Of a stretch of 46,345 nt of DNA, positions 19,179 to 46,345 are shown piece after piece (positions within the stretch are counted from its first letter, which is position 1; each line of letters begins with the position of its first letter). The stretch spans positions 1 through 46,345 of the forward strand of contig NZ_CAJQQI010000060.1 of NCBI RefSeq assembly GCF_905480415.1. The letters are read 5' to 3'. The notes beneath the pieces were generated by a model that saw only the letters and a program-made list of their open reading frames with translations, did not search any database and was not told the origin of the DNA. A program made the position numbers and the translations under genes. This DNA comes from an uncultured Algibacter sp. (GTDB lineage Bacteria; Bacteroidota; Bacteroidia; Flavobacteriales; Flavobacteriaceae).

Positions 19179-19208
19179 TATATAATCGAAAACGTTTTCG
19201 ATTATATA
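19179..19208. promoter_or_regulatory. LacI-family operator palindrome upstream of the sugar porter
   Basis: Perfect 30-bp inverted repeat tatataatcgaaaacgttttcgattatata centred on CG, ~86 nt before the ATG at 19294. Confidence 0.85.
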
Positions 19209-23146: not shown

Positions 23147-24169
23147 TTAGGTAGATTTTCTAATCACTAGCGCAGTATCAATAACAACTTTTTGATATTC
23201 AACATTAATGTTTTTGTGTTTGTATTCGATTTCTTGAAATAGAATTTCAGTTGATTTCTCACCCATCTTGTATGCGTTTTGTTCAATTGTAGAGAGTGAA
23301 GGTGAAATTACAGATGACATAAACCAATTACTAAAACCACACAGTGCTATCTTTTCTGGGATAGCGATCTTTTTTTGATTAAAATAATTTATAGCTCCAA
23401 TAGCAATAAGGTCATTAACTGCAAATATGGCATCAACATGGTCTCCATGATCTTCAATTAGTTTTTTAGCACTATTGTAACCATCTTCAAAATCTAAGTT
23501 GGTATTGCATATATAAACTAATGATGGGTCGTAGGGAATATCATTATCTATTAAAGCCTTTTTATAACCTAAGAACCGATCAATTGAATTTTGAGGGTTG
23601 AGATCTCCTCTAAAATGAGAAATACGCTTGTAGCCCTTTTTTATAAGATATGTAACAGCATCGTAAGCAGCTTTTCTATCATCAATGATAACTTTAGAGC
23701 AGTTAATGGTTTTTGCGATTTTATCAAAAAGCACTAAAGGCACCTTATAATCTAAAATCTTTTGTAAATGTTTAAAGTCTCTCGTCCTATTTGATAATGA
23801 AATTAAAATTCCATCAACACCTTTATTTAAAAGTAAATCTACTTGCTTTTTTTCGAGTTCGTAATTTTCATTAGATTGCATTATAATAACCATATAATCT
23901 CTGTTCTCGGCTTCTTTTAAAACGGCATCAATAACGGTTGAAAAAAAATAGTGAACCATGGTGGGTATTATAACACCTATAGTTTTAGATGTTTGTGAGC
24001 GTAAACCAACAGCAAAAGAATTTGGTACATAATTTAATTCATACGCTAGTTTTTTTACTAAAGCTTTAGTTTTTTTACTTACATCAGGATAATCTTTAAG
24101 AGCCTTGGAAACTGTTGTGATTGATAACCCTAACTGATCTGCTATATCTTTTAATATTACGGGCTTCAT
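23147..24169 (-). CDS. LacI-family transcriptional regulator
   Basis: N-terminal HTH VILKDIADQLGLSITTVSKALKDYPDVSKKTK and periplasmic-binding-like effector domain; divergent from susC. Confidence 0.95.
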   Translation of the reverse strand: MKPVILKDIADQLGLSITTVSKALKDYPDVSKKTKALVKKLAYELNYVPNSFAVGLRSQTSKTIGVIIPTMVHYFFSTVIDAVLKEAENRDYMVIIMQSNENYELEKKQVDLLLNKGVDGILISLSNRTRDFKHLQKILDYKVPLVLFDKIAKTINCSKVIIDDRKAAYDAVTYLIKKGYKRISHFRGDLNPQNSIDRFLGYKKALIDNDIPYDPSLVYICNTNLDFEDGYNSAKKLIEDHGDHVDAIFAVNDLIAIGAINYFNQKKIAIPEKIALCGFSNWFMSSVISPSLSTIEQNAYKMGEKSTEILFQEIEYKHKNINVEYQKVVIDTALVIRKST

Positions 24170-24591: not shown

Positions 24592-24605
24592 CGAAAACGT
24601 TTTCG
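24592..24605. promoter_or_regulatory. LacI-family operator in the lacI-susC divergent intergenic region
   Basis: cgaaaacgttttcg perfect 14-bp palindrome matching the 19179 site core; ~293 nt before the susC ATG. Confidence 0.8.
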
Positions 24606-24897: not shown

Positions 24898-27879
24898 ATG
24901 AAAAACAAATTACTCAAAAAGCTATTGCTTCCTTTTGCTTTATTGCTAGGAAGCTTTATTTATGCTCAAACCGTAACGGGGACTGTAAGTGACGCTTCAG
25001 GGCCACTGCCCGGTGTTAATGTATTAGTAAAAGGTACTGCAGTAGGGTCGGTTACAGATTTCGATGGGAATTTTCAAGTTAGTGCCAATAATGGAGACAC
25101 TTTAGTGTTCTCATACATAGGTTACTTGACTCAGGAAGTTCTAGTAAGTGAATCAACAATGAACATTACTCTTGAAGACGATGCTGCTCAACTTAATGAA
25201 GTAGTGATAGTTGGTTATGGTAGTACAACTAGGAAAGAGGTTACAACTGCTGTTACTAGCGTTGGAGCAGAAGATTTTAATAAAGGTGTTATTAGTGATG
25301 CCACACAGCTATTACAAGGTAAGGTTGCTGGTCTTACGGTTTACAATAAAGGGGGTAACCCAAACTCAAGCGCAACAATTCGTTTGAGAGGTATTTCTAC
25401 TGTAGGTGGTAATACAGAGCCACTAGTAGTAATTGACGGTGTTTTAGGACAGTCGCTGAGCAATGTTGATCCAGCAGATATTGAAAATATCACAGTTTTA
25501 AAAGATGGTTCAGCAGCAGCTATATATGGTACTCGTGGATCGAGTGGTGTAATTTTAGTAACAACGAAGTCAGGTAAAAATGGTCAGCCATTTAGTGTTT
25601 CTTACAATGGGCAATTTTCTACTGCATCTATATCAAATCAAATTGATCTTATGGGTAGACAAGAGTTTTTAGCAACAGGAGGTACTGATCTTGGAGCTGA
25701 TACGGATTGGAGAGATGAAGTTACTCGTACAGCTGTATCTAAAATACATAATATTTCAGCAGTCGGGGGAACAGATAAAGCAAATTACCGTGTATCTGTT
25801 AATTTAAGAGATGCTGAAGGGATTTTAATTAATTCAGGTTTTAATCAAGTAAATGCTAGAGCTAAACTATCAGGTAAAATGTTAAATGATAAATTGAAGA
25901 TTAGTTTCAATACCTCATTAACTCAACGCGATAGTGATTTCGGGTTTAACGAAGCCTTGCGTTATGCATCAGTATATAATCCAACTGCTCCTGTATTAGG
26001 TTCAGATGCGCCTTTTGCATTTAATGGTGATCAGTTTGGTGGCTATTTTGAAACCTTAGGTTTATTTGATAGTTTTAATCCTGTATCAATTGCTGAACAA
26101 AACAAAAATTATGGTTCTAGAACTATAATCAACTATAGTTTAGATTTTAGATACTCTTTTACAGATGATTTATCGGCTAATTTAATGGTTGGTGAGCAAA
26201 TAGAAAAGAATACAAATAGACAATATTATCCTGTAACTTCTTTTTTCAGAGGAAATGCTGTAAGTCCTTTTAGAAAAGGTAGAGCAGATTTCTATAACAA
26301 CGAAATTAGAAACAAAACGTTTGAGTTATTTGGTACATATAATAAATCAGTGAATGATTCATTTAGTTTCAAATTTACAGGAGGATATTCTTGGCAAGAA
26401 ACTGACTTTAACGAATACTATTTGCAAATTGGAGATTTTCCTCCTGGTGTAAATTTTGATTTTAGTGATAATATCGAGATTTCTCAAGATTTATTGGAAT
26501 CAGGTCGTATTATAGCTAATAGTGGTCGTAATGATGATGATAGAATTATTGCCTTTTTTGCTAGAGCAAATGCTACAATAAGCGATGCTATTTATGTGAA
26601 TGCTTCAATTAGAAGAGAAGGATCAAGTAGATTCGGTGATGACGAACAATGGGGTATTTTTCCTTCAGCTGCGATAGGAGCCGATTTGAATAAGTTTTTA
26701 GAATTAGATAATGTAAACTTATTGAAAGCAAGATTAGGTTATGGTGTTACAGGTGCAATCCCTCCTGGTGTTGGTTTGTCTCAAACAACTTTCGGAGTTA
26801 GTAATGGTGGAAGCGGTTTCGGTTCTTCAAGTACTGGTTTAGGTAGTAGAGCTCCAAACCCTGGATTAAAATGGGAGGAAAAAAGAGAATTAAATTTAGG
26901 TTTTGAATATGAAACAGACCGTCTGTCTGCTACATTAGACTTATATAATAGAGATATTGTAGATTTTATTACAAATCAAAATATCGATGCAGCTGCTAAT
27001 GATGGGTTTACTAGCCAATTCCAAAACGGAGGTGAATTAAATACCAAAGGTATAGAGTTGAGTTTAAATTATGATTTTGTTAATAATGATAAGCTTACTT
27101 ATAATTCTGGAATCATATTTTCATCTTACAAAACGATTCTTGAAAAGAATACAGGTGGAGATAGAACTACAGCAAATTTAGGAGCGCCAGGTCAAAACAG
27201 TACCAATGTTATTTTGGTGAAAGAAGGTCAAGAAGTTGGTCAAATATGGGGTCCTGTATTTTCTGGAGAAGTTGATGCTAATGGAACGCCAATATTGGTT
27301 GATGTAAATGGTGATGGTAATTTGGTTACAGATCAAGGTAGTGCTCTGAATGACGATGTTGATTTTAAGGTATTAGGTAAAGGTATTCCTGATTTTGAAT
27401 TAAGTTGGACACATTCAGTAAAGTATGGTAACTGGGATGCTAATGTATTGTTTAGAGGTGCATTTGGACACAGTTTAGTTAATACGTTCCGTGCGTTTTA
27501 TGAGCCAAGAATTGGTTCTCAATCATCTTACAACTTTGTAAATACAGAATTAGCTAGGAATGATATTAAAACAGCTCAATTTAGTTCTTACTACGTTGAA
27601 AAAGCTGATTTCTTTAGATTAGATAACCTATCTATTGGTTATAATTTCGATATCAAAAATGAGTATATTCAAAATATGAGAATATCATTAACGGGTCAAA
27701 ATTTATTTACAATTACCGATTATACTGGATCTGATCCAGAACCAGCTTTACAAGATTTTGGTGCTGTAGATAACGGTGGAGATTTAGGATCGGCAAATGT
27801 ATTAGCTCCTGGTGTTGATAGACGATATAATTATTTTCAGTCTAGAACAATTACTTTAGGATTAAATATTAACTTTTAA
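24898..27879 (+). CDS. susC-like: SusC/RagA-family TonB-dependent outer membrane transporter
   Basis: Signal peptide, CarboxypepD_reg-like domain, TonB box/plug (LNEVVIVGYGSTTRKEVTTAVTSV; VIDGVLGQSLSNVDPADIENITVLKDGSAAAIYGTRGSSGVILVTTKSG), C-terminal beta-barrel. Confidence 0.96.
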   Translation: MKNKLLKKLLLPFALLLGSFIYAQTVTGTVSDASGPLPGVNVLVKGTAVGSVTDFDGNFQVSANNGDTLVFSYIGYLTQEVLVSESTMNITLEDDAAQLNEVVIVGYGSTTRKEVTTAVTSVGAEDFNKGVISDATQLLQGKVAGLTVYNKGGNPNSSATIRLRGISTVGGNTEPLVVIDGVLGQSLSNVDPADIENITVLKDGSAAAIYGTRGSSGVILVTTKSGKNGQPFSVSYNGQFSTASISNQIDLMGRQEFLATGGTDLGADTDWRDEVTRTAVSKIHNISAVGGTDKANYRVSVNLRDAEGILINSGFNQVNARAKLSGKMLNDKLKISFNTSLTQRDSDFGFNEALRYASVYNPTAPVLGSDAPFAFNGDQFGGYFETLGLFDSFNPVSIAEQNKNYGSRTIINYSLDFRYSFTDDLSANLMVGEQIEKNTNRQYYPVTSFFRGNAVSPFRKGRADFYNNEIRNKTFELFGTYNKSVNDSFSFKFTGGYSWQETDFNEYYLQIGDFPPGVNFDFSDNIEISQDLLESGRIIANSGRNDDDRIIAFFARANATISDAIYVNASIRREGSSRFGDDEQWGIFPSAAIGADLNKFLELDNVNLLKARLGYGVTGAIPPGVGLSQTTFGVSNGGSGFGSSSTGLGSRAPNPGLKWEEKRELNLGFEYETDRLSATLDLYNRDIVDFITNQNIDAAANDGFTSQFQNGGELNTKGIELSLNYDFVNNDKLTYNSGIIFSSYKTILEKNTGGDRTTANLGAPGQNSTNVILVKEGQEVGQIWGPVFSGEVDANGTPILVDVNGDGNLVTDQGSALNDDVDFKVLGKGIPDFELSWTHSVKYGNWDANVLFRGAFGHSLVNTFRAFYEPRIGSQSSYNFVNTELARNDIKTAQFSSYYVEKADFFRLDNLSIGYNFDIKNEYIQNMRISLTGQNLFTITDYTGSDPEPALQDFGAVDNGGDLGSANVLAPGVDRRYNYFQSRTITLGLNINF

Positions 27880-27897
27880 TTAAAAAAAAACAATAAA

Positions 27898-29508
27898 ATG
27901 AATCGTTTTATAAAATTAACATTCTTAAGTAGTATGCTGGTTATGGCATATTCTTGTACAGATCTAGATGAGGTCTTAGAAGATGAATTAACTACTGAGT
28001 TTTCGGATGATGGTGTTACTGTAGTAGAAGGTGCTACCGATGGTGGAATTCTTCCTTCAGGAGCATTGACGCCTTCTTATGACAGACTTAGAAATGGATC
28101 TGCAGGGCATGGTAGCTATTATTCTGCTCAAGAAGTTTCATCAGATGAAATGACCTTAGGTCAAAAAGGTGGTGACTGGTTTGATGGTGGTATATGGTTG
28201 CGTATGCACAGACATACTTTTGATGCCTCGAATGGTACGTTTAACAATATCTGGAATGATGCTTACGGAGGTATTGGTGAAGTGAATTTAGCTTTAAATG
28301 GCGGTTCTTTATCACCTGCCGAAATGGCACAGGCTAAAACAATTAGAGCTTTCTTTTACTGGAGATTGTTAGACAACTTCGGTAATGTGAAAATAATTAC
28401 AGCCCCAGGTGGTGATGCGCCACAAACGGATAGTCAAGCAGCTTTTAACTTTGTTGAAAGTGAATTGTTAAGTGTATTAGGAATTAGTGAAGTTACAGCT
28501 AGTTTAGATTTATCTGGTAGTTCTTTAGGTACTGCCGCTGAACCATATTTAGTGAATCAATTTGGAGCACTAGGTTTATTAGCTAAACTATATTTAAATG
28601 CAGAAGTATATACAGGAACGCCACATTATCAAGAGGCTGACTGGGCTGCTACTTATATTATAGACAATGGTCCTTACCAGTTATGTGCTGATGGTTGTAC
28701 TGTTATTAACTTGGCACAACGACCAGCGGTGGCTTCTGATCCTGATAACTTAGAAGGTTATGCTGCGATATTTGCTCCAAATAATCAATTCAACCCTGAA
28801 ATGATTTGGTCTATACGTTACGATGCTGTTTCTGCTGGGGGAATGAATTTCTCTCAAATGAATTTTCATTACAGTACTCAGTTAACATATGCTTTAGACG
28901 CACAGCCATGGAATGGGTATCAAGTTGTTGAAGAGTTTTATAATAGTTATGATGATGCTGATGCCAGAAAAGTAGCAAACTTCTTATCAGGACCACAGTT
29001 GGATTTTGGTGGTAATGCTTTACTAGATTTTGCTGCAGATGATGATAATCTTCAACTGAATTACACGCCGAACATTAGTGAGTTAGAGCCAAATTCTGTT
29101 AGAGAAAGTGGTGTTCGTGGTAAGAAATTTAGCTTCCAATTATTTGGTAGACCGGAAATGAATAATGACTACCCAATTTTTAGATTAGGTCAAGTACATT
29201 TAATACGTGCTGAGGCAAAAGCCAGAGCTGCAGGTAATTGGAGTTTAGCTGAGCCAGATGTTACTGCTTTAAGAGCAAGAGTTGGTTTAGGCCCATTAGG
29301 ATCAATCACAGCAGATACTTTCTTAGCTGAAAGAGGAAGAGAGATGTTTATGGAATCTTCTCGTAGAACTGATTTAATCCGTTTTGGTAAATTCGGAGGT
29401 TCTTGGTGGGAAAAAACAAATTCTGATTCGTTTAGAACTTTGTTTCCAATACCTCTAGAGCAAATTAATGCTTCAAGTGGTAGTCTAAGTCAGAATCCAG
29501 GTTATTAA
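27898..29508 (+). CDS. susD-like: SusD/RagB-family outer membrane glycan-binding lipoprotein
   Basis: Lipobox AYSC; RAFFYWRLLDNFGNVKII; C-terminal ERGREMFMESSRRTDLIRFGKF; directly after susC. Confidence 0.95.
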   Translation: MNRFIKLTFLSSMLVMAYSCTDLDEVLEDELTTEFSDDGVTVVEGATDGGILPSGALTPSYDRLRNGSAGHGSYYSAQEVSSDEMTLGQKGGDWFDGGIWLRMHRHTFDASNGTFNNIWNDAYGGIGEVNLALNGGSLSPAEMAQAKTIRAFFYWRLLDNFGNVKIITAPGGDAPQTDSQAAFNFVESELLSVLGISEVTASLDLSGSSLGTAAEPYLVNQFGALGLLAKLYLNAEVYTGTPHYQEADWAATYIIDNGPYQLCADGCTVINLAQRPAVASDPDNLEGYAAIFAPNNQFNPEMIWSIRYDAVSAGGMNFSQMNFHYSTQLTYALDAQPWNGYQVVEEFYNSYDDADARKVANFLSGPQLDFGGNALLDFAADDDNLQLNYTPNISELEPNSVRESGVRGKKFSFQLFGRPEMNNDYPIFRLGQVHLIRAEAKARAAGNWSLAEPDVTALRARVGLGPLGSITADTFLAERGREMFMESSRRTDLIRFGKFGGSWWEKTNSDSFRTLFPIPLEQINASSGSLSQNPGY

Positions 29509-29533: not shown

Positions 29534-29562
29534 GGTTGTTCTTAGGAACAACCTTTTTTTTT
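29534..29562 (+). terminator. Intrinsic terminator/attenuator hairpin after susD
   Basis: GGTTGTTC-ttag-GAACAACC followed by a T8-9 tract; next ORF ATG only ~14 nt downstream. Confidence 0.85.
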
Positions 29563-29575
29563 GTATTATGCACTA

Positions 29576-32842: not shown

Positions 32843-33419
32843 CGTAAAATTTTTGATAATATTTTTTTTATTAATACAGCTGAGCTGTAATAAATCTGAA
32901 TATACTAAGCTTGTAAATAATGAAATGGCGAAAAATATTGTGAATGATTCGCTCATTTTTGGAATGACATTTGGTCAAACAAGAAAATTGTTTTTCGATC
33001 AATGTTGGAAGCTAAACAATCAAAAAATAATCAATCAAGGATCCTCAAATAATTTTGTTGAATATCAATTGCCTAAGAAAAAAGGAGATAGTCTAAATAG
33101 CCCAATTACATTGCTATTTTATGGGATATTTAATAAGGAAAAAATCATGACAGGAATGGATATGAAATTTCGTTATGTAGCTTGGTCACTTTGGAACAAA
33201 TCGTTACAATCAGATAAGTTAGTACCGGTGGTTAAGGATAGTCTAAAAACTTGGTTTCCTGGTAATGATTTTATAGTAATACCAGCTAAGAAAACCAAGG
33301 GAGAAATACATGTTAAAATAGATGGAAATCGACGGATTTTAATAGAACCTATTACAGATAGCAGAACAGTTGATGTTAGAATTGATGATTTAAGGTATGT
33401 GCTTGATAAAATAAACTGA
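32808..33419 (+). CDS. Small orphan lipoprotein of unknown function (203 aa)
   Basis: Signal peptide with lipobox IQLSC; start overlaps the upstream gene by 35 nt, and its stop overlaps the next start (TGATG). Confidence 0.75.
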   Translation: MKKQVSIVLKNSVKFLIIFFLLIQLSCNKSEYTKLVNNEMAKNIVNDSLIFGMTFGQTRKLFFDQCWKLNNQKIINQGSSNNFVEYQLPKKKGDSLNSPITLLFYGIFNKEKIMTGMDMKFRYVAWSLWNKSLQSDKLVPVVKDSLKTWFPGNDFIVIPAKKTKGEIHVKIDGNRRILIEPITDSRTVDVRIDDLRYVLDKIN

Positions 33420-36400
33420 TGAAAGGAAAATTGATGAATTACGTTAAATTAATAGCAGTCTTATTACCGTTTTTTATGGTTTCCTGTAAAAAACATAATG
33501 AGCCTACCATAAAAAATTTCGAATTATTAGACAAATCAATTACGGGTATTGACTTTTCAAATGACCTATCATACGATAATGATTTTAACGTATATAAGTA
33601 CCGCAATTTTTACAATGGTGGAGGTGTCTCAGTTGGCGATGTAAACAATGATAATTTATTAGATATATATTTTACATCTAACCAAAATCAGAACAAACTA
33701 TTTCTCAACAAAGGTGATTTTAAATTTATAGATATTACTGATACGGCTGGTGTAAGTGGTGAGAAACCATGGTCAACTGGTGTTACAATGGTTGATATTA
33801 ATGGAGATGGACTTTTAGATATTTATGTATGTAATTCTGGTGATTTAAAAGGAGAGAACAAACAGAATGAGCTCTTTATTAATAATGGAGATTTAACTTT
33901 CACCGAAAAGGCAGAAGAATATAACTTAGGAGATAAAGGATTCTCAACACATGCTTCATTTTTTGATTTTGATAAAGATGGTGATTTAGATGTTTATATC
34001 TTGAATAATTCTTATCAAGCCATTGGGAGTTTTGATTTACGGAGAAATGAAAGACCAAATAGAGATTTACTAGGTGGTGATAAATTAATGGAGAATGTAG
34101 ATGGGAAATTTATAGATGTTAGTGAAAAAGCAGGTATTTATGGCAGTGTTGTTGGTTTTGGTCTGGGAGTTACAATAGGAGATATAAATAATGATGGCTG
34201 GGAAGATATTTATGTTTCTAATGATTTTTTCGAAAGAGACTATTTATATATCAATAATCATAATGGCACATTTTCAGAGAAATTTGAAGATCAAATAACG
34301 GCTACAAGTGGCGCTTCTATGGGTGCCGATATGGCAGATATAAATAATGACGGCTATAATGATATTTTTGTCACGGAGATGCTACCGTCTGATTATGAGC
34401 GTTTAAAGACAGTTACGACTTTTGAAGATTGGAATAAGTATCAACTAAAAGTGAATAATGGATACTACCATCAATTTACAAGAAATACATTTCAATTAAA
34501 TAACAAGAATAATTCTTTCAGTGAGATTGGAAGGTTAAGTGGAGTAGAAGCTTCGGATTGGAGTTGGGGAGCTTTGATTTTTGATATGGATAATGATGGT
34601 TTAAAAGATCTTTTTATTTCAAATGGTATCTATAGAGATTTAACCAATCAAGATTATCTTCAATACATATCGAATGAAGAAGTTTCAAAGTCAATGATGA
34701 TAAATAATGTAGTTGATTACGCTAAACTCATTGAAATCATTCCTTCAAATAAAATAAAAAATCACGCCTACCAAAACTTGGGAGGTTTGAAGTTTAAAGA
34801 TTACAAAGAATCAGGTTTGCAAACCGAAAGTTTTTCAAATGGCGCTGCATACGCCGATTTAGATAATGATGGCGATTTAGATTTAGTTGTAAATAATCTA
34901 AACATGAATGCTTTTGTTTATAAGAACTCCACCACGGAGAATAAAAACAAACCTTATTTAAAGTTTATTCTTAAAGGAGAAAATTTAAATACACAAGCCA
35001 TCGGTTCGAAAATTGAAATTATTTCAAATAAGCAATCGATAGAAAACCAACCAACAAGAGGGTTTCAATCGAGTGTAGATCCTCGGCCTAATTTTGGTTT
35101 AACATCAAATGACCCTGTGACTGTTAAAGTTACATGGCCTTCAGGTAAAACAACTGCTTTAAGCAATGTACAACCAAATCAAACCATCACACTTTCAGAA
35201 AGCGATGCGCTACTTACAGAAGTAATCGATGAAGTTAATCAACATGCCTTATTTAAAAAAAATCACGAAATTTTGAATTTTGTGCACAAAGAAAATAATT
35301 TTATTGATTTTAATCGAGATAGGTTATTACATCATATGTGCAGTACTGAAGGGCCAAAAATGTCAATGGCAGATATTAATAATGACGGAAAGCAAGATTT
35401 ATTTATTGGAGGCTCAAAAGGGTCATCAGCAACCATCTTACATGGTAAAGACAGTGGTTTTGTGATTGATAAAACAAAAGATTTTCAAAAAAACATCAAT
35501 TCTGAAGATATGGCGAGCCTTTTCTTTGACGCAGATAATGATAATGATTTAGATCTATATGTTTGTAGTGGCGGCGTAGAATTTTCACAATATTCATCTG
35601 ATTTTTTAGATAGACTTTATCTCAACGATGGTAAAGGCAATTTTACCCTTTCAGACCAAAGATTGCCTGTAAAAGGATCAATGCATAGTACATCAACGGT
35701 AATATCTTCAGATATAGATAATGATGGCGATTTAGATTTGTTTGTTGGTGAGCGCGTTGTGCCTTTAAAGTATGGGGTCAAGTGTTCTGGTTTTATCTTA
35801 GAGAATGATGGTAATGGAAACTTTACGGATGTTACTGAAACTAAGGCGAACAATTTAAAAAATATTGGTATGATTACCGATGCGATATTTAATGATTTGG
35901 ATGCAGATGGAGATGATGATTTGTTAATTGTAGGAGAGTTTATGGGTATTGAAATCTTTATTAACCAAGGCGGGATTTTTACTAGAAGAGAGGAAGGTCA
36001 AGTAAAAGACTTAAAAGGGTGGTGGAACACGATACATAAAGTTGATTTAGACAATGATGGTGATTTTGATTTTATTGTTGGAAACCATGGATTAAATAGT
36101 AGATTCAGAGCAAGTCCTGAAAAGCCAATTACACTCTTTTCAAGCGATTTTGATAAAAATGGTTTTATAGATCCGGTTTTGGCTTTTAGAGCATCTAATG
36201 GAAAAGATTATCCTTATGCCTTACGCCATAATTTAATTGATCAAATGAAAGGGTTAAAGAAAAAATTTCCAAATTATGAATCCTTTAAAGACGCTAGTAT
36301 GGATGTCATTTTTGCTAAAAATGATTTAGACGTTTCTAATCAATTAAAAGTAACAATATTATCCTCGATAGTTTTAATAAATAAAGGAAATTTAGAATTT

Positions 36401-36706
36401 GATGTCTTAGAACTTCCAATCGAAGCACAATTTTCTTCTATTTATGCAATTAATACAGACGATTTTGATAAGGATGGAGATCAAGATATTGTTCTAGGAG
36501 GTAACTTATTTAATGTAAAACCAGAAGTAGGGAGATATGATGCCTCATATGGCGTTTATTTAGAAAATAAAGGTAATATGAAGTTTAAAAGCCATAAGAA
36601 TGGTAATGGATTTTTCCTTAAAGGAGAGGTTCGTGATATCATAGTGCATGAACAAAAGCTCATCGTTGCTAGAAATAGTGATTCGTTAGCAATATTCAAA
36701 TATTAA
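33419..36706 (+). CDS. VCBS/FG-GAP repeat protein with ASPIC/UnbV-like domain, lipoprotein (paralog 2)
   Basis: Lipobox MVSC; YRNFYNGGGVSVGDVNNDNLLDIYF, DFDKDGDLDVYILNN, TRGFQSSVDPRPNFGL..VKVTWPSGK. Confidence 0.9.
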   Translation: MKGKLMNYVKLIAVLLPFFMVSCKKHNEPTIKNFELLDKSITGIDFSNDLSYDNDFNVYKYRNFYNGGGVSVGDVNNDNLLDIYFTSNQNQNKLFLNKGDFKFIDITDTAGVSGEKPWSTGVTMVDINGDGLLDIYVCNSGDLKGENKQNELFINNGDLTFTEKAEEYNLGDKGFSTHASFFDFDKDGDLDVYILNNSYQAIGSFDLRRNERPNRDLLGGDKLMENVDGKFIDVSEKAGIYGSVVGFGLGVTIGDINNDGWEDIYVSNDFFERDYLYINNHNGTFSEKFEDQITATSGASMGADMADINNDGYNDIFVTEMLPSDYERLKTVTTFEDWNKYQLKVNNGYYHQFTRNTFQLNNKNNSFSEIGRLSGVEASDWSWGALIFDMDNDGLKDLFISNGIYRDLTNQDYLQYISNEEVSKSMMINNVVDYAKLIEIIPSNKIKNHAYQNLGGLKFKDYKESGLQTESFSNGAAYADLDNDGDLDLVVNNLNMNAFVYKNSTTENKNKPYLKFILKGENLNTQAIGSKIEIISNKQSIENQPTRGFQSSVDPRPNFGLTSNDPVTVKVTWPSGKTTALSNVQPNQTITLSESDALLTEVIDEVNQHALFKKNHEILNFVHKENNFIDFNRDRLLHHMCSTEGPKMSMADINNDGKQDLFIGGSKGSSATILHGKDSGFVIDKTKDFQKNINSEDMASLFFDADNDNDLDLYVCSGGVEFSQYSSDFLDRLYLNDGKGNFTLSDQRLPVKGSMHSTSTVISSDIDNDGDLDLFVGERVVPLKYGVKCSGFILENDGNGNFTDVTETKANNLKNIGMITDAIFNDLDADGDDDLLIVGEFMGIEIFINQGGIFTRREEGQVKDLKGWWNTIHKVDLDNDGDFDFIVGNHGLNSRFRASPEKPITLFSSDFDKNGFIDPVLAFRASNGKDYPYALRHNLIDQMKGLKKKFPNYESFKDASMDVIFAKNDLDVSNQLKVTILSSIVLINKGNLEFDVLELPIEAQFSSIYAINTDDFDKDGDQDIVLGGNLFNVKPEVGRYDASYGVYLENKGNMKFKSHKNGNGFFLKGEVRDIIVHEQKLIVARNSDSLAIFKY

Positions 36707-36709
36707 GAA

Positions 36710-39700
36710 ATGAAACATGTAATAAAATTTGTAATTGTAGCGCTAGTATTTTTTTCGGGCTGTAAAGAGAAAAAAGAGATTAATGTAAAACGAGCTGCTA
36801 TATTTTTTGATGAAGTTCCTTCAGAATTAAGTGGGATTGATTTTTCAAATAACTTATTCCATAGCGATGACTTGAATATTATGGAGTACCTATACTATTA
36901 CAATGGAGGAGGTGTCGCCATAGGAGATATTAATAATGATGGGCTTGACGATATTTACTTATCCGCTAATCAAAAGTCTGACAAGTTGTACCTCAATTTA
37001 GGAAACCTAAAGTTTAAAGATATTACGGAAGAAGCAGGAATACAGATGGATTCTACATGGTCATCAGGTGTAACAATGGAAGATGTTAATAATGATGGGT
37101 TTTTAGATATTTATGTGTCAAAAGTTGGAAATTATAAAGTTCTAAAAGCACACAATTTATTATATATTAATAAAGGAGATAATTCGTTTACAGAATCTTC
37201 TAAAGTTTATGGAATAGATTTTTCAGGTCTATCGACACAAGCTTCCTTTTTTGATTATGATAACGATGGTGATATGGATATGTACTTAATGAATCACTCC
37301 GTTCACACACCTAGAAGTTATGGAAGTATAGATAGACGTAAAATTAAAGATTCACTTTCAGGAGATAAGTTATATGAAAATAGATTAGATCAAAATCAAA
37401 TAAAATTTGTTGATGTTACCGAAGCTTCTGGGATATACAGTAGCGCCCTTGGTTATGGATTAGCTTTAACAACTTCTGACGTAAATAATGATGGTTTAAT
37501 TGATATTTATGTAGGTAATGACTTTCATGAAAATGATTATTTATATATCAATCAAGGAAATAAAACTTTTAAAGAATCTGGAGTAGATTATTTGAGCCAT
37601 ACTTCCAGGTTTACCATGGGACTTGATATTGCCGATATTAATAATGATCAACAGTTGGATATTTTTTCACTAGACATGATGCCATTTGATCATGAGATAT
37701 TTTTAAAATCGGGCGGTGAAGATTCAGATAAGGTGAGTCAAATCAAGGAAAACTTTGGTTTTAGAAAGCAATACGCTAGAAATACATTACAGTTAAATCA
37801 GCAAAATAAAGCGTTTACTGATATCGCATTAATGACGAATACATACGCGACAGATTGGAGTTGGTCGGCTTTGATTCAAGATTATGACAATGATGGCCAT
37901 AACGATATTTATGTCACCAATGGTATTTATAAAAGGCCGAATGATCTTGATTATATTAATTATTTAAGTAATGTCAACTTTTCAAAATATAACCAATCAC
38001 AACAAAACGACTTAGAAGAAAGTATCATTAAACAAATACCAACGATTAAAATTCCAAATGTAGTATTTCGAAATAAAGGGGACTTAGAATTCGAGATGCT
38101 TACGGATAAAGCCGGCTCTAACCCATCTTACTCGAATGGTTCAGCGTATAGTGATTTAGATAATGATGGTGATTTAGATATAGTGGTCAACACAATCAAT
38201 CAAACAGCTTTATTATTAGAGAATAAAAGTACAGATACAATAAACAACAATTATATATCCTTCACTCTAAAAGGTGATAGTATTTATAAAAATACGACTG
38301 GTGCAAAGCTATATATATATGCAGATAATATGGTAAAATATAATGAGCTAAATGTAACAAGAGGCTTTCAGTCGTCATCAACACATAAGATTCATTTTGG
38401 CATTGGAAAAACACAAAAGATTGATAGTGTAAAAGTCCAATGGCTAGATGGAACGTTTCAAATTATAAAAGGAGTATCGGTTAATCAACATCATGTTCTT
38501 ACAAGAGACAACTCTGCACAAAAGTCAATAAAATTGACCGTAAGCGATGATAAAAATTTTTTTAGAACTTTTCCATTTTCCCATCTTGAGAACAATTATG
38601 TAGATTACGAAAAAGAACCATTAATGCCTGAGAAACTATCAACAGAAGGGCCAGCACTTGTAAAAGCTGATTTTAATGGTGATGGGTTAGAAGATATTTT
38701 TATAGGCGGGGCAAAACATCAATCATCTGAACTTTTTCTAAGAAAAGGTGATGGAACATATTTTAATAAAAGAGAGAATGATTTCAATAAAGATGTTATT
38801 TATGAAGATGTCGATGTTACAGCATTTGATTTAGAAAAAGATGGTGACCTCGATTTATATGTTATGAGTGGGGGTAATGAAAGTGTGGAAGGTGATCCGT
38901 ATTTAGAAGATCGTGTTTATATAAATGATGGCAATGCCAATTTTCGTCGTTTAATTGCTCCACTCATTAAAACGAATGGCGGTAGTGTTTCTTCTGGAGA
39001 TTTTGATGGCGATGGTTTTGATGATTTGTTTATAGGTAATAGATCAATGTCTAGAGGCTATGGTTTATCTCCATATAGTTTTATTTTAAAAAATAGTGGT
39101 AAAGGAAGTTTTGAAATTGTTAAGAAAGTAAGATTGGGTATGGTGACAGACAGTCAATGGACAGATCTTAATAATGATAAAAAATTAGAATTAGTGGTAG
39201 TAGGCGACTATATGCCCATAACAGTATATAGTTATCAACGAGATTCAACATTTGTAAATGACACAAAGAAATATGGATTAGATCAAACGCAAGGTATGTG
39301 GAACAGTGTTTTGGTAGCAGATATTGATGGTAATGGAGAAAAAGATATTATAGCTGGTAATGCTGGTTTGAACTTTAAATTTAAGGCATCTAAAGAACGA
39401 CCTGTAAAAATTTATATTGATGATTTTGATGATAATGGACAGGTTGACCCTATTATTTTTTACGATTTTTTTGGTAATAATGTGCCATTCGCATCAAAAA
39501 ATAAGTTAATGGATCAAATGCCCTCACTAAAGAAGAAATTTTTAAGCTATTCAAAATTTTCAAAGATTGCGAGTATTGAAGACCTCACAGGTAAGCCTGA
39601 GAAAGACATTCTTGAAATAAAAAAAATAGTTGAATTGCGATCCATGATGTATATGAATGTCGGTAACAAAACACAAGAAATACCATTACCAAATCAAGCT

Positions 39701-39976
39701 CAAATGAGTAGTATTGAGGATGTATTATTGGATACAACTGATAATAAGCAGCGAATTATTTTTGTTGGTAATTATTTAGATTATACTGCAGAACTTGGTG
39801 AAAGTAATGGGAATTCTGGTGGGGTCATTTCATTTTCTAATAAATTTGATTCTTACCATGATTTACCTTTACCAAGAAATTTAAATGCCAGAAAAATTAT
39901 CAAAATAAGCGAAAATGAATTTTTAGTTGTTGCAAATAATGACAAAACGTATATTTTCACCCTTACTAACGATTAA
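36710..39976 (+). CDS. VCBS/FG-GAP repeat protein with ASPIC/UnbV-like domain, lipoprotein (paralog 3)
   Basis: Lipobox FSGC; YYYNGGGVAIGDINNDGLDDIYL, DYDNDGDMDMYLMNHS, TRGFQSSSTHKIHFGIG..VKVQWLDG. Confidence 0.9.
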   Translation: MKHVIKFVIVALVFFSGCKEKKEINVKRAAIFFDEVPSELSGIDFSNNLFHSDDLNIMEYLYYYNGGGVAIGDINNDGLDDIYLSANQKSDKLYLNLGNLKFKDITEEAGIQMDSTWSSGVTMEDVNNDGFLDIYVSKVGNYKVLKAHNLLYINKGDNSFTESSKVYGIDFSGLSTQASFFDYDNDGDMDMYLMNHSVHTPRSYGSIDRRKIKDSLSGDKLYENRLDQNQIKFVDVTEASGIYSSALGYGLALTTSDVNNDGLIDIYVGNDFHENDYLYINQGNKTFKESGVDYLSHTSRFTMGLDIADINNDQQLDIFSLDMMPFDHEIFLKSGGEDSDKVSQIKENFGFRKQYARNTLQLNQQNKAFTDIALMTNTYATDWSWSALIQDYDNDGHNDIYVTNGIYKRPNDLDYINYLSNVNFSKYNQSQQNDLEESIIKQIPTIKIPNVVFRNKGDLEFEMLTDKAGSNPSYSNGSAYSDLDNDGDLDIVVNTINQTALLLENKSTDTINNNYISFTLKGDSIYKNTTGAKLYIYADNMVKYNELNVTRGFQSSSTHKIHFGIGKTQKIDSVKVQWLDGTFQIIKGVSVNQHHVLTRDNSAQKSIKLTVSDDKNFFRTFPFSHLENNYVDYEKEPLMPEKLSTEGPALVKADFNGDGLEDIFIGGAKHQSSELFLRKGDGTYFNKRENDFNKDVIYEDVDVTAFDLEKDGDLDLYVMSGGNESVEGDPYLEDRVYINDGNANFRRLIAPLIKTNGGSVSSGDFDGDGFDDLFIGNRSMSRGYGLSPYSFILKNSGKGSFEIVKKVRLGMVTDSQWTDLNNDKKLELVVVGDYMPITVYSYQRDSTFVNDTKKYGLDQTQGMWNSVLVADIDGNGEKDIIAGNAGLNFKFKASKERPVKIYIDDFDDNGQVDPIIFYDFFGNNVPFASKNKLMDQMPSLKKKFLSYSKFSKIASIEDLTGKPEKDILEIKKIVELRSMMYMNVGNKTQEIPLPNQAQMSSIEDVLLDTTDNKQRIIFVGNYLDYTAELGESNGNSGGVISFSNKFDSYHDLPLPRNLNARKIIKISENEFLVVANNDKTYIFTLTND

Positions 39977-39988
39977 AGTATTAAACAG

Positions 39989-41326
39989 ATGAAGAGAATT
40001 ATGAAGTATATTTTATTTGGAATGGTACTAAGCTGTCTCCTAGTTTTGACAGGATGTAAGCAGAATAATGCTTATAAAGAACAACTTCAAGACCCTGAAC
40101 TTTTTCACTCTGCAATGAGTAATTTAACGGATGTAATTGTATATGATATATTTTCACCCCCAGTTGCATCGCGGGTTTATATGTATCCGAGTGTAGCTGC
40201 TTTTTCAATAATACAAAAGGCCTACCCAGATAAATATAATAGTTTAGAAGGTCAACTAACAGATTTAAATGCTATACCAAAACCAAATAATGAGGATGTT
40301 GATTTCCATCTAGCTTCTATTCATGCATTTACTGTGGTTGGAAAACACTTCATTTTTTCTGAACAAAAAGTAACGGATTTTCAAAATGAAACTTATAAAA
40401 AATTAATTGATAGCGGATTGCCTAAAAAAACAAAAAAAGCATCAATTGAATATGGTGAGGTGGTTGCAAAACATATTTTGGAATGGGCCAAAGGAGATTT
40501 ATATAATCAAACTCGAACTTATCCTAAATACACAATCCTTGAGGATGATAAATATTGGAAACCTACACCTCCAGATTATATGGATGGGATTGAACCACAT
40601 TGGAATAAAATAAGAACGTTAGTTCTGGATTCAGCAAATCAATATGTTCCAGCACCTCCAATTGAAATAGATTTAACTGATGGCAGTGCATTCAAAAAAC
40701 AACTGATGGAAGTTTATAGAAAAGGGCAAGGTAGAGATCAAGAAAGTAAAGATATTGCTAGTTTTTGGGATTGTAACCCTTATGTTTCGCATCATCGAGG
40801 ACATGCTATGTTTGCTACAAAGAAGATAACACCAGGTGGACATTGGATAGGGATTACTAAAATTGCTACAAAGAAATCAAATAGTTCTTTTGATGAAACG
40901 GTTAATGCTTATACACATGTTAGTGTCGCGCTTTTTGATGGCTTTATAAGTTGTTGGGATGAAAAGTGGAGAAGCCTAGTGGTTAGGCCAGAAACGTTAA
41001 TCAATCAATATATTGATGAACAATGGGTCCCATTATTGCAAACACCTCCTTTTCCAGAATATACTAGTGGTCATTCAGTAATATCAAGAGCTGCTGCTGT
41101 AATATTAACGAATTTATACGGAGATGATTTTGGTTTCTTAGATACAACAGAAATGGAATATGGATTACCAGCAAGGAGTTTTAATTCATTTTATCATGCT
41201 TCTGAAGAAGCGGCAGTCTCTAGGCTTTATGGAGGAATACATTATCGAATGGCTATTGATGAAGGTGTGACTCAAGGACAAAAAGTTGGAGAATTTATAG
41301 TTCAAAAAATGCAGACTAAAAAATAG
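39989..41326 (+). CDS. Vanadium-dependent haloperoxidase / PAP2-superfamily lipoprotein
   Basis: Lipobox LTGC; catalytic motifs KWRSLVVRP (K-x6-RP), YTSGHS (variant of PSGH), SRLYGGIH (SR-x5-H). Confidence 0.85.
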   Translation: MKRIMKYILFGMVLSCLLVLTGCKQNNAYKEQLQDPELFHSAMSNLTDVIVYDIFSPPVASRVYMYPSVAAFSIIQKAYPDKYNSLEGQLTDLNAIPKPNNEDVDFHLASIHAFTVVGKHFIFSEQKVTDFQNETYKKLIDSGLPKKTKKASIEYGEVVAKHILEWAKGDLYNQTRTYPKYTILEDDKYWKPTPPDYMDGIEPHWNKIRTLVLDSANQYVPAPPIEIDLTDGSAFKKQLMEVYRKGQGRDQESKDIASFWDCNPYVSHHRGHAMFATKKITPGGHWIGITKIATKKSNSSFDETVNAYTHVSVALFDGFISCWDEKWRSLVVRPETLINQYIDEQWVPLLQTPPFPEYTSGHSVISRAAAVILTNLYGDDFGFLDTTEMEYGLPARSFNSFYHASEEAAVSRLYGGIHYRMAIDEGVTQGQKVGEFIVQKMQTKK

Positions 41327-41481: not shown

Positions 41482-41497
41482 TCGAAAACGATTTCGA
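41482..41497. promoter_or_regulatory. LacI-family operator upstream of the second sugar-transport/trehalase cluster
   Basis: tcgaaaacgatttcga, one mismatch from the perfect palindrome core seen at 19187 and 24592; ~194 nt before the ATG at 41691. Confidence 0.7.
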
Positions 41498-41690: not shown

Positions 41691-43016
41691 ATGTCAAAAA
41701 TGAAACCAACTAAACCAAGATTATCTTTTTGGCAAATATTTAATATGAATGTTGGATTCCTGGGAATTCAATATAGTTTTGGGTTGCAGCAAACTGCAAT
41801 AAATCCGATATTTTTATATTTAGGTGCTCCAGAAGACATGTTGCCAATTTTGAATATTGCAGGTCCAGTTACAGGGTTAATAATTCAACCAATAATTGGA
41901 GCGATGTCAGACAAAACATGGTCTAACCGATGGGGTAGAAGAAAGCCTTATTTTTTAATTGGTGCTTTATTAGGGAGTTTGTGTTTATTCGCATTTCCAC
42001 ATAGCCCAATACTTTGGTTTGCTGTGGGATTACTTTGGATTCTCGATGTTGGTAACAATATGGCAATGGAACCTTACCGTGCTTTTGTTGGAGATAAATT
42101 ACCCGAAAAACAATTAAGTTTGGGGTATCAAATGCAAAGCTTATTCGTTGGTGCAGGTATTTTATTAGCTAATGGATCTATAGTTTTGTTTCAATATTGG
42201 TTTGGTGGAGAATCTGTTGAAGAAGTAGGTGTTATTCCACAATGGTTGTATTATTCATTCTATATTGGTGCATTCTTATCTTTAACTACCATTTTATGGT
42301 CAGTTTTTAAAACTCCTGAAATCCCGCCTTCCACTCAAGAGCTCGAAGAAATAAATACAATTAAGAGTATGCCCTTTAATAAACGTATTTCTCAACCTTT
42401 TCAAGAAATAGTGCAAGCTATAAAAGAGATGCCGAAATTTATGTGGAAAATTAGTGCTGTATATTTATTTCAATGGTATGCACTATTTATCTATTGGCAG
42501 TTTACTACACCTCTATTCAAATTAACCTTAGGTTTTTCAACATCTGAAGCTGCATCACAAGCTGCTAAAATGAGTTTAACCTATAATATAGTCACAATGG
42601 TAGTCGCCTTAGCTTTAGTTCCTTTAACGCTCCGGTTTGGTGGCAAAAAAGTCTATGCAATCAGTTTAATAGGTACGGCTATTGCCTTATTTACAATACC
42701 TTATATTTCAGACCCTGTTATGGTCCTTGTGCCTATGGTGCTATTTGGAATTGGATGGGCCGCAATGATGGGGATTCCTTATACCATGGTTTCAAAAATT
42801 GTGCCTCAAGATCGCAGAGGAGTATATATGGGTATTTTAAATATGATGATTGTAATTCCTATGTTTATTCAAACGCTAACATTTGGGCCAATATATAAAT
42901 ATGTACTTGGTGGTAATGCCATAAATGCAATGTTATTTGCTGGGTTGTTTTTTGCTATATCTGCTTTTTTAGCTTTTCGATTAAATGAAAACAAAGCTAT
43001 CGAAGATAACGATTAG
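41691..43016 (+). CDS. MFS transporter, SLC45/GPH-like disaccharide (maltose/sucrose type) transporter
   Basis: QQTAINPIFLYLGAPEDMLPILNIAGPVTGLIIQPIIGAMSDKTWSNRWGRRKPYFLIGALLG; 12 TM pattern. Confidence 0.85.
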   Translation: MSKMKPTKPRLSFWQIFNMNVGFLGIQYSFGLQQTAINPIFLYLGAPEDMLPILNIAGPVTGLIIQPIIGAMSDKTWSNRWGRRKPYFLIGALLGSLCLFAFPHSPILWFAVGLLWILDVGNNMAMEPYRAFVGDKLPEKQLSLGYQMQSLFVGAGILLANGSIVLFQYWFGGESVEEVGVIPQWLYYSFYIGAFLSLTTILWSVFKTPEIPPSTQELEEINTIKSMPFNKRISQPFQEIVQAIKEMPKFMWKISAVYLFQWYALFIYWQFTTPLFKLTLGFSTSEAASQAAKMSLTYNIVTMVVALALVPLTLRFGGKKVYAISLIGTAIALFTIPYISDPVMVLVPMVLFGIGWAAMMGIPYTMVSKIVPQDRRGVYMGILNMMIVIPMFIQTLTFGPIYKYVLGGNAINAMLFAGLFFAISAFLAFRLNENKAIEDND

Positions 43017-43064
43017 CCAGTATTTTTAGGAAAGGCACACTAATATATTTTACACTCGAAGAAA

Positions 43065-44294
43065 ATGAAAAACTTAGGCATTAAAATCTCCATCTATCTT
43101 AACTATTTTGTTTTTGCAATACTTTTAAATAGTGTTGGTATTGTAATTGAAAAATCTATTGATGTATACAAAGTAACGGAATCTCAAGCATCTACTTTAG
43201 AGGCCTTTAAAGATTTACCAATAGCCATCGTTTCTTTTATAATTGCATCTTTTCTACCGCGTTTTGGTTACAAAAAAGCCATGTTAGTAGCATTAGTTAT
43301 TGTGTTTTTTGGTTGTGTACAAATTATTTTAGGTAATTCATTCTTTTATACCAAAGTACTTTTTTTAACTATTGGAGTTAGTTTTGCCTTAATAAAATTA
43401 TCAGTCTATTCCCTTATTGGAATTTTAACCAATTCAAGAAAAGAACATGCCGCTTTAATGAGTTCTATAGAAGGGTTCTTTATGGTAGGAATTGCTTTGG
43501 CCTATTTTTTATTCCCAGCTTTTTATTCTTCTGATGAAAATTCTTGGTTAAATGTATACTACCTTTTATGCGGTCTGATTTTAGTTTCGTTTCTTTTTCT
43601 GCTTTTCTCTAAAATTACTTATCAAGTTGAAGCCATAAGTACTAGTTTGAAAGAAGACTTGAAAGAATCTCTTAAATTAATGGTTGTTCCGTTAGTTATG
43701 GTTTTTATCATTTCAGCTTTTTTGTTTGTAATGATAGAGCAGGGAATTATGACATGGTTGCCAACCTTCAATAAAAAAATATTCAATTTTAATTCAGTAT
43801 TAAGTGTTCAAATGGCAAGTATATTAGCCCTTTCTCTTGCTCTTGGAAGATTCGTTGCGGGATTTCTTACCAAATACATAAATTGGGTTTACCTCGTTAT
43901 TATATGTGTTATTGTTTCTGGCAGCATTTTAGTTTATGTTTTACCCCAATTACAGGGAGACATTGAATCTATTGGAGAAATTTCAAGCTTATCCCAAGTG
44001 CCACTATTAGGATTTATTTTACCACTAATAGGATTATTTATTGCGCCAATTTATCCGCTTTTGAATTCTACAGTGTTAAGCTCCTTACCTAAGAGTTTAC
44101 ATTCACCTATGTCTGGTTTAATAATTATTTTTTCTGCATTAGGAGGTACAATAGGTTCAAGAATAGTTGGTGAATTATTTGAAAATATAGGTGGTGCCAG
44201 TGCGTTTTACTTTTTGCTAATCCCAATGGGTTTGTTGATTATTTTTGTTTTATTAATCGACCGTATGTCTAAAAATCAAGAAGTAGCGCAATGA
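43065..44294 (+). CDS. MFS transporter (FucP/TsgA-like)
   Basis: 12 TM hydrophobicity pattern; RFGYKKAMLVALVIVFFGC; stop overlaps the trehalase ATG by 4 nt. Confidence 0.75.
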   Translation: MKNLGIKISIYLNYFVFAILLNSVGIVIEKSIDVYKVTESQASTLEAFKDLPIAIVSFIIASFLPRFGYKKAMLVALVIVFFGCVQIILGNSFFYTKVLFLTIGVSFALIKLSVYSLIGILTNSRKEHAALMSSIEGFFMVGIALAYFLFPAFYSSDENSWLNVYYLLCGLILVSFLFLLFSKITYQVEAISTSLKEDLKESLKLMVVPLVMVFIISAFLFVMIEQGIMTWLPTFNKKIFNFNSVLSVQMASILALSLALGRFVAGFLTKYINWVYLVIICVIVSGSILVYVLPQLQGDIESIGEISSLSQVPLLGFILPLIGLFIAPIYPLLNSTVLSSLPKSLHSPMSGLIIIFSALGGTIGSRIVGELFENIGGASAFYFLLIPMGLLIIFVLLIDRMSKNQEVAQ

Positions 44295-46162
44295 TTTTTT
44301 TTAATTTAAATATTGAAGCTACACTTCAAAAGTTATTATTGCAGGAAGACACAGATGGTGATAAAAGAATAACCATTGAAGATAAAGGCCCCAAAGCATT
44401 TGAAATAACATCAAGTAAACGAGAACCTTATATGGTAAAAGGAACTTACCATCTCTCAAATTTATTACAAGAATTAGTCATTGCAAAAAACAAAGGAAAA
44501 ACTACTGCACAAATTCCTTTAAAAGGCATTGAAGAACCACCAGTAGAAAGAGTTTCTAGAATGGTTAAAGATTATTTTTGGAGTGGGCTTACAAGAACAA
44601 TGGATGAAAAAGGGATTCAAAACCTTATAAACGATTCAAAAAATGAAACCCTTATTTCAAATAAATTAAGAGTTTATATTCCTTTTAATGATAAGATAGC
44701 TTTTAAATATTATAGAAATTTAGAAACAGATTTTCCTATCAAAGCCATTAAGCTTCCTAAAAAAATAACACCAAATTTTGTAAAACGCATCAACACAAAA
44801 CCAGGGATTCTATCACTCAAACTAAAAGAGGATAATGGACAAATTAATGGAATTCCTTTCGTTGTTCCTGGTGGACGTTTTAATGAAATGTATGGTTGGG
44901 ACAGCTATTTTCAATCTATTGGTTTAATAATAGATGGAAAAATAGAATTAGCAAAAGCTGTTGCTGAACATTTTCAATATGAAATTGAGCACTACGGGAA
45001 AATACTTAACGCTAATAGATCTTATTATCTTACGAGAACTCAGCCCCCTTTTTATTCGAGTTTGATTTGTGAAGTTTTTGAGGTTTGTAAAGATAAAAAT
45101 TGGTTAAAAAGTCATTTAAAAACTGCGATTCATGAATATGAAACTGTTTGGATGGTGGAAGGAAAACGTTTGATAAAAAACGGATTAAATCGTTATTTGG
45201 CTGAAGGTATTGGTTTTCCTCCAGAATGTGAAGAAGGGCATTTTGATGCTATTATAAAACCATTTGCAGATGCTGTACAGATATCAATAAATACCTATTT
45301 AGAGAAATATCAAAAAGGTGAAATCAAAAACAATCAACTAGATATTTATTTTTTAAATGACAGAAGTGTTCGAGAATCGGGTCATGATACATCCTACAGA
45401 ATAGATAGTAATTGTGCCGATTTAAACTTAGTTGAGCTAAATGCTTTTTTATATAAATATGAAATAGATTTTGCCAAATTAATTAAAGATGAGTTCGATG
45501 ATGTTTTCATCATCAATTCTAAAAATTATACAAGTAATTATTGGTTAGAAAAAGCAAGAAATCGTAAAAAGAAAGTAAATGAGTATTTATGGAATGAAAA
45601 TGATGGACTTTTTTACGACTATAATTTTACAACAAATAAGCAATCAAAATTTGTTTCAGCAACTACTTTTACGCCTTTGTGGAGTAAAATGGCAACCCAA
45701 AAACAAGCTGAAGAAATTTTAAAAAACGCATTGCCCTTATTGCTAGAAAAAGGAGGTATTTCGGGAAGCACCCAAGAAAGTAGAGGTGAAATTTCTAATG
45801 AACGCCCTGCTCGTCAATGGGATTATCCAAATGGTTGGGCGCCTCATCAAATGCTTATTTGGAAGGGATTATTGAATTATGGCTTTGAAACTGAAACTCA
45901 AGAATTAATGTATAGATGGTTGTACATGATTACCAAAAATGCTGTTGATTATAATGGGACCATTCCAGAAAAATATGATGTTGTACAAGCTACACACAAA
46001 GTGTTTGCAGAATACGGAAATGTTGGGACGGATTTTGAATATATAACCCAAGAAGGTTTTGGTTGGATGAACGCATCTTATCAATATGGTTTGTCATTAT
46101 TGACAAAAAACAACATCATGCATTTAAATCAATTAAAAAAACCAGAAGAACTTTTTATCTAA
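44291..46162 (+). CDS. Trehalase, glycoside hydrolase family 37 (no signal peptide, predicted cytoplasmic)
   Basis: Trehalase signatures PGGRFNEMYGWDSYF and QWDYPNGWAPHQ; N-terminal EDTDGDKRITIEDKGP. Confidence 0.93.
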   Translation: MIFFNLNIEATLQKLLLQEDTDGDKRITIEDKGPKAFEITSSKREPYMVKGTYHLSNLLQELVIAKNKGKTTAQIPLKGIEEPPVERVSRMVKDYFWSGLTRTMDEKGIQNLINDSKNETLISNKLRVYIPFNDKIAFKYYRNLETDFPIKAIKLPKKITPNFVKRINTKPGILSLKLKEDNGQINGIPFVVPGGRFNEMYGWDSYFQSIGLIIDGKIELAKAVAEHFQYEIEHYGKILNANRSYYLTRTQPPFYSSLICEVFEVCKDKNWLKSHLKTAIHEYETVWMVEGKRLIKNGLNRYLAEGIGFPPECEEGHFDAIIKPFADAVQISINTYLEKYQKGEIKNNQLDIYFLNDRSVRESGHDTSYRIDSNCADLNLVELNAFLYKYEIDFAKLIKDEFDDVFIINSKNYTSNYWLEKARNRKKKVNEYLWNENDGLFYDYNFTTNKQSKFVSATTFTPLWSKMATQKQAEEILKNALPLLLEKGGISGSTQESRGEISNERPARQWDYPNGWAPHQMLIWKGLLNYGFETETQELMYRWLYMITKNAVDYNGTIPEKYDVVQATHKVFAEYGNVGTDFEYITQEGFGWMNASYQYGLSLLTKNNIMHLNQLKKPEELFI

Positions 46163-46211: not shown

Positions 46212-46345
46212 ATGAAGCATTTTTTGCTTTTTTTAAGTTTATCAGTATCACTTTGTTTACAATCTCAAGATTTTTCAAACTCTCCTTGGCATATAGAGGC
46301 CAACAATATTGATCCAAATAATTATTACGGAATTACAGTTGCCAA
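46212..46345 (+). CDS. 5' end of an exported GH65-like glycoside hydrolase/phosphorylase (truncated by window end)
   Basis: Frame from ATG 46212: MKHFLLFLSLSVSLCLQSQDFSNSPWHIEANNIDPNNYYGITVA; signal peptide plus GH65-like N-terminal sequence (recalled pattern). Confidence 0.5.
   Translation, partial: MKHFLLFLSLSVSLCLQSQDFSNSPWHIEANNIDPNNYYGITVA

Follow-up and report, generated by a model that had tools for sequence, protein, structure and literature searches.

The window analysed here, a stretch of 46,345 nucleotides, encodes a bacterial neutral trehalase that, as judged from its sequence and its predicted structure, is homologous over its full length to the yeast enzyme Nth1, with an N-terminal Ca2+-binding domain and a GH37 catalytic domain. 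This finding is larger than the preliminary description of the DNA had stated, as it extends to a whole branch of neutral trehalases in bacteria. Taking the evidence together, we consider that the protein is probably a cytosolic trehalase that is always on and acts on imported trehalose, and that Ca2+ would serve in it as a structural clamp on the active-site lid.

Bacterial trehalases have been described as TreA/TreF-like, with calcium binding cited for fungi (literature including PMC10847541 and PMC4731906), and a review that sets Nth1 against prokaryotic trehalases regards the way in which phosphorylation, calcium and 14-3-3 control this enzyme as unique (PMC10847541). A search of the literature by the name of the Pfam domain returned papers on fungi only. 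In the literature searched, no description of a bacterial Nth1-type family or of its gene partners was found; the species lists of Pfam may already hold bacteria.

The trehalase and its likeness to Nth1

The gene starts within an ATGA, its start codon sharing 4 nt with the stop of the upstream MFS gene. The following features were assigned to the protein.

44291..46162, + strand: Nth1-type neutral trehalase, GH37, 623 aa (ORF, Pfam, PDB sequence search, AlphaFold2 model)
44324..44407, + strand: PF07492 (Trehalase_Ca-bi) Ca2+-binding domain, residues 12-39 (46 bits, E 4.3e-12; curated cut-off 25 bits)
44348..44383, + strand: 12-residue EF-hand-like loop DTDGDKRITIED, D20-D31 (alignment with Nth1)
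44534..46099, + strand: GH37 catalytic domain PF01204, residues 82-603 (453 bits; cut-off 21 bits)
45386..45388, + strand: predicted catalytic acid D366 (aligned with Nth1 D478 and TreA D312)
45968..45970, + strand: predicted catalytic base E560 (aligned with Nth1 E674 and TreA E496)

The Nth1-like Ca2+ motif that the preliminary description had placed ahead of the GH37 domain proved to be real, with a PF07492 match above the cut-off and in the same position relative to GH37 as in yeast Nth1. This match is the only one that the profile search found in the genome, and the trehalase is single-copy. The peptide originally singled out, EDTDGDKRITIEDKGPKAF, corresponds to residues 19-37 (44345-44401); the end coordinate given for it, 44392, falls at P34, short of the end of the peptide at 44401. 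Alignment to Nth1 and TreA showed that the catalytic Asp and Glu of GH37 are conserved as D366 and E560, which we take to be the acid and the base, respectively. The absence of a signal peptide, also claimed earlier, was upheld: none was visible in the N-terminus, MIFFNLNIEATLQK, by sequence inspection and a hydropathy rule, residue 3 aligned with Nth1 F97, and the structural model gave a strand at residues 3-7 and a helix at residues 8-19.

A sequence search of the PDB returned yeast Nth1 entries as the best matches, with 583 bits over residues 3-606, as against 142-151 bits for bacterial periplasmic trehalases (142 for E. coli TreA) and 116 bits for the Arabidopsis enzyme. Overall identity to Nth1 was about 45%, distributed as 42% (residues 1-81), 33% (82-188) and 49% (189-606), and the corresponding values for E. 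coli TreA were 6%, 14% and 33%. The motif itself aligned with the fungal Ca2+-binding domain. The protein thus has in common with Nth1 of S. cerevisiae (PDB 5n6n, 5jta, 5nis and 5m4a) the two-domain build, the Ca2+ loop and the catalytic Asp/Glu. It shares the GH37 fold and the catalytic residues with E. coli TreA (periplasmic) and TreF (cytosolic), which differ from it in lacking the Ca2+ domain, in their N-terminal 190 residues and in forming a separate clade. The link to the fungal enzymes that had been proposed from the motif is therefore strongly supported beyond it, since by bit scores, clade and fold the whole enzyme is of the Nth1 type.

Two other bacterial enzymes help to delimit the family. 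Equal activity is expected of TreZ of Zunongwangia sp., a TreA-type enzyme of Bacteroidota of about 530 aa with 44% identity to E. coli trehalase (PMC4731906), and TreA-type enzymes also occur in Flavobacteriaceae. The Granulicella tundricola protein WP_013572912.1 (L148), which scores higher against Nth1 (254 bits) than against TreA (212 bits), is a distant sister of the Nth1-type family with a very long branch; it has no Ca2+ loop, and its N-terminus resembles a signal peptide.

Distribution and phylogeny of the family

Among Bacteroidota, PF07492 was detected in 18 of 396 genomes, representing 12 of 172 genera. The phylum of the Phycisphaerae member had it in 2 of 246 genomes, and that of the Eremiobacterota member in 5 of 148; four of these five had two copies. 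When 84,980 species were scanned, each represented by a single genome, at least 583 GH37-type relatives emerged, the best 80 being of the Nth1 type. These best 80 of at least 583 came from Bacteroidota, Ignavibacteriota, Calditrichota, Gemmatimonadota, Myxococcota or other 'Deltaproteobacteria', Fidelibacterota, Planctomycetota, Elusimicrobiota, Deferribacterota and Vulcanimicrobiota; many relatives are metagenome assemblies, so that individual phylum assignments may be mistaken. The Ca2+ loop is common to more than 100 bacterial relatives (112 rows), which are spread over about ten phyla. The family is thus present in Bacteroidota, as had been described, and the restriction to that phylum was too narrow: this trehalase family is old and spread in bacteria.

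Among 151 genomes of the source organism's own family, 19 had an Nth1-type and 16 a TreA-type enzyme, as called from length and profile span and, for most, from the sequences. None had both, against about two expected by chance, a difference that is not significant. The viral contigs scanned contained no trehalase relatives, and the plasmid matches listed were only TreA/TreF-like or Granulicella-type enzymes, so that no mobile-element route was seen. The five genomes with PF07492 in the phylum of the Eremiobacterota member are G539, G806, G822, G828 and G834 (L163-L170); in the four with two copies, the Nth1-type trehalases fall into two clades, one with the MFS gene upstream and one without. 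The second copies of Vulcanimicrobiota without the MFS gene are likewise cytosolic.

Nth1 and the bacterial Nth1-type enzymes formed one clade, apart from TreA/TreF, in each of three trees (support 100/98, 99/99 and 100/100; 99-100 bootstrap), in which TreA/TreF served as the outgroup and fungi were represented by one sequence. In denser trees Nth1 lay inside the bacterial members as the sister of Vulcanimicrobiota, with a support of 89/91 when a long Acidobacteria row was included and 98/91 when it was left out. The addition of the Vulcanimicrobiota sequences moved the root and placed Nth1 deeper inside the bacteria, indicating that the order of the deep branches in the first tree is unreliable. 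AU tests of a topology with all bacterial members as a single clade beside Nth1 gave p values of 0.258, 0.461 and 0.334, and this topology was not rejected.

These trees bear on the direction of transfer. From the sequences, a transfer from bacteria to fungi, by which the fungal enzyme would derive from the bacterial family, is favoured but not proven. The opposite route, in which a fungal gene entered bacteria and then spread among them, appears unlikely, although it retains some appeal: the AU tests accommodate the single bacterial clade that it would leave, and a single fungal sequence stands in the trees. Against it, the best trees nest Nth1 beside Vulcanimicrobiota, the bacterial members are diverse, and the exported group branches outside. 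In an earlier study the trehalases of A. vaga grouped with Bacteroidetes, and the fungal trehalases stood apart in the same trees (PMC4498783).

Predicted structure and the proposed role of Ca2+

The loop of the trehalase, D20-T-D-G-D-K-R-I-T-I-E-D31, aligns without gaps with D114-T-D-K-N-Y-Q-I-T-I-E-D125 of Nth1, and D20, D22, D24 and D31 pair with D114, D116, N118 and D125, which we take to be the residues that hold Ca2+ in the yeast enzyme. Position 5 thus differs, being N in Nth1 and D in the bacterial protein. Across the 112 bacterial rows, a count that includes a few contigs fetched twice, positions 1, 5, 8 and 12 were D, D, I and D without exception, and position 3 was D in 111 rows, the exception being L090 with N. 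The conservation of the ligand residues makes it likely that the loop binds Ca2+, which is present in the Nth1 structure 5n6n (PMC9523730).

An AlphaFold2 model built from 38 family members had a mean pLDDT of 92.7 and a pTM of 0.92. In a Foldseek search against the PDB, chain 5n6n_C (Nth1 with 14-3-3) ranked first (TM 0.93, 645 columns), followed at a distance by the free Nth1 entries (TM 0.79-0.80, 556-557 columns), which have 548-551 resolved residues; the TreA structures reached a TM of 0.53-0.55. In the model, the Ca2+ domain is docked as in the activated Nth1-14-3-3 complex, which supports, without proving, that it adopts this position, as AlphaFold2 was trained on the PDB including 5n6n and the docked domain may copy that state. 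Only one segment of the model fell below a pLDDT of 50.

46016..46033, + strand: candidate lid loop, residues 576-581 (pLDDT below 50; equivalence to the Nth1 lid proposed by analogy, PMC9523730)

It is plausible, by analogy, that this segment is the counterpart of the lid loop of Nth1. When 14-3-3 binds the yeast enzyme, it sets the orientation of the Ca2+ domain, and the lid above the active site is stabilised as a result (PMC9523730); bound calcium makes this contact stronger (PMC10847541).

Nth1 carries an N-terminal tail of about 95 residues with its 14-3-3 sites, Ser60 and Ser83 (PMC10847541), whereas the bacterial trehalase lacks this tail and begins at about Nth1 position 95. A profile search with PF00244 found no 14-3-3 protein in the genome, an absence that is provisional since the genome is about 92.5% complete. 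With neither the phospho-tail nor 14-3-3, the yeast switch cannot operate. The conservation of the Ca2+ loop was moreover equal in the exported (28) and the cytosolic members among the bacterial rows. Exported enzymes meet steady, high Ca2+. The simplest reading of this equal conservation is a structural rather than a signalling role, and the sequences point to such a role in this trehalase. As a side observation, some exported members (L034, L036, L029 and L171) carry an insert of about 7 residues immediately behind the loop, e.g. DDPHIPGTNKGNK.

A regulatory function of Ca2+, in which binding to the loop would switch activity with cytosolic Ca2+, seems rather improbable to us. The near invariance of the loop in 112 proteins and the part of the domain in ordering the lid of Nth1 (PMC9523730) would fit it, but the loop is kept just as well in the 28 exported members exposed to high, steady Ca2+, and the tail and 14-3-3 are missing. 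For the same reasons, the suggestion that the enzyme is Ca2+-regulated in the fungal sense found no support. Still less probable is that the loop is a fossil or a mere folding element that holds no Ca2+ in vivo, or Mg2+ instead. Position 12 is Asp rather than Glu and L090 has Asn at position 3, as this would allow; however, Asp at positions 1, 5 and 12 in 112 of 112 rows goes beyond the needs of the fold, and the loop of Nth1, in which Ca2+ was seen (5n6n; PMC9523730), also ends in Asp. DxDxD loops are common, and an ordinary TreA/TreF trehalase might have come to resemble Nth1 in the motif through convergence or chance; this is refuted by the full-length match to Nth1, by the support of 99-100 for the shared clade and by the agreement in fold. 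The structural clamp is the reading that we retain below.

Gene neighbourhood, proposed trehalose uptake and significance

Unlike Nth1, the bacterial trehalase is encoded beside a transporter gene. Upstream of it lie a GPH-like MFS gene, a PAP2 gene, FG-GAP/ASPIC genes, a SusC/SusD pair, a LacI gene and a set encoding a sugar transporter, GH32 and PfkB.

19188..19199, + strand: palindrome GAAAACGTTTTC 5' of the sugar transporter-GH32-PfkB genes (palindrome search)
23147..24169, - strand: LacI-family regulator (PF00356, PF00532)
24593..24604, + strand: palindrome GAAAACGTTTTC 5' of susC (palindrome search)
24898..29508, + strand: SusC/SusD outer-membrane glycan uptake pair (PF00593, PF07715, PF07980)
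39989..41326, + strand: PAP2-superfamily lipoprotein-like protein (PF01569; in 14 of 112 loci)
41484..41495, + strand: palindromic operator-like site GAAAACGATTTC 5' of the MFS-MFS-trehalase genes (palindrome search)
41691..43016, + strand: MFS transporter of the GPH/SLC45 kind, sucrose-symporter-like (TIGR01301 102 bits, far below the cut-off)
43065..44294, + strand: MFS transporter (MFS_2), putative trehalose importer (PF07690)

A homologue of the MFS_2 gene was found directly upstream of the trehalase in 79 of the 81 members that lack a signal sequence and in none of the 27 that have one, signal sequences being assigned by the hydropathy rule. Two of the 27, L035 and L044, which are the same contig, have an MFS gene about 2.6 kb upstream, and their trehalase is probably cytosolic, with a later start codon. 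After correction for kinship, five independent supported pairs were left, of which four to five pointed in the expected direction and none against it (p 0.0625 in a sign test, the lowest value that five pairs can give). The natural explanation of the contrast between cytosolic and exported members is that the MFS protein would bring the disaccharide to the cytosolic enzyme and be needless when the enzyme works outside. A relative of the GPH-like transporter gene was found near the trehalase in 37 of 112 loci.

The two neighbouring transporters (41691-44294) share 88-91% identity with their counterparts in the nearest relatives (L082, L139, L144 and L134), as against 68-71% for the trehalase. 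Replacement of the trehalase gene was considered and rejected, because the relatives' own trehalases also differ more from one another than their transporters do; a trehalase that evolves faster than the adjacent transporters is the simpler reading of these sequences.

With one mismatch allowed, the palindrome GAAAACGTTTTC occurs at 3 sites in the window, compared with 0.22 expected by chance. Of 80 relatives, 31 had the operator word upstream of the trehalase, compared with a mean of 3.1 of 80 for control palindromes of the same make-up (next best 7), a figure that somewhat overstates the evidence since the 80 relatives are not mutually independent. These sites make a LacI regulon over sucrose and trehalose use likely. 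No GT20 trehalose-phosphate synthase was found in the genome, provisionally given its completeness of about 92.5%, and this fits the use of external trehalose. A related lead on expression comes from Polaribacter, in which a GH37 trehalase, MED152_05110, was up 4.7-fold when the bacterium was grown together with a green alga (PMC9870897).

Two further observations concern the locus. Between SusC/D and the transporters (29561-39976), three proteins are encoded, each about 1,090 aa long and with FG-GAP or similar repeats; UnbV_ASPIC domains are present in both of those tested, and such proteins recur near the trehalase in a few relatives. Downstream, positions 46212-46345 hold the 5' part of another gene, whose encoded N-terminus, MKHFLLFLSLSVSLCLQSQDFSNSPWHIEANNI, resembles a signal peptide; this gene is cut by the contig end and may be part of the trehalase operon.

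In the pathway that we propose, SusC/D would let trehalose through the outer membrane and the adjacent MFS permease would carry it across the inner one, and the always-on trehalase would split it in the cytosol into two glucoses. Docked against the catalytic domain, the Ca2+ domain would keep the lid of the active site ordered as in 14-3-3-activated Nth1, with no need for 14-3-3, and the bound Ca2+ would be a structural clamp and not a signal. A LacI-type repressor that binds the GAAAACGTTTTC operators would control expression, as the conservation of the sites suggests.

In conclusion, a bacterial family with the calcium domain, without the tail or 14-3-3, separates the regulatory layers of Nth1 and reveals what the calcium domain contributes on its own, and its members are single-protein models of the Nth1 active site. 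The context of the family also ties a putative trehalose permease to the trehalase gene. For the origin of the fungal enzymes, we give even weight for and against the proposal that neutral trehalases of fungi arose from a bacterial trehalase that already had the calcium clamp, the 14-3-3/phosphorylation tail being added in fungi ahead of an always-on enzyme. The bacterial family represents a natural 'before' state of a textbook 14-3-3 target.
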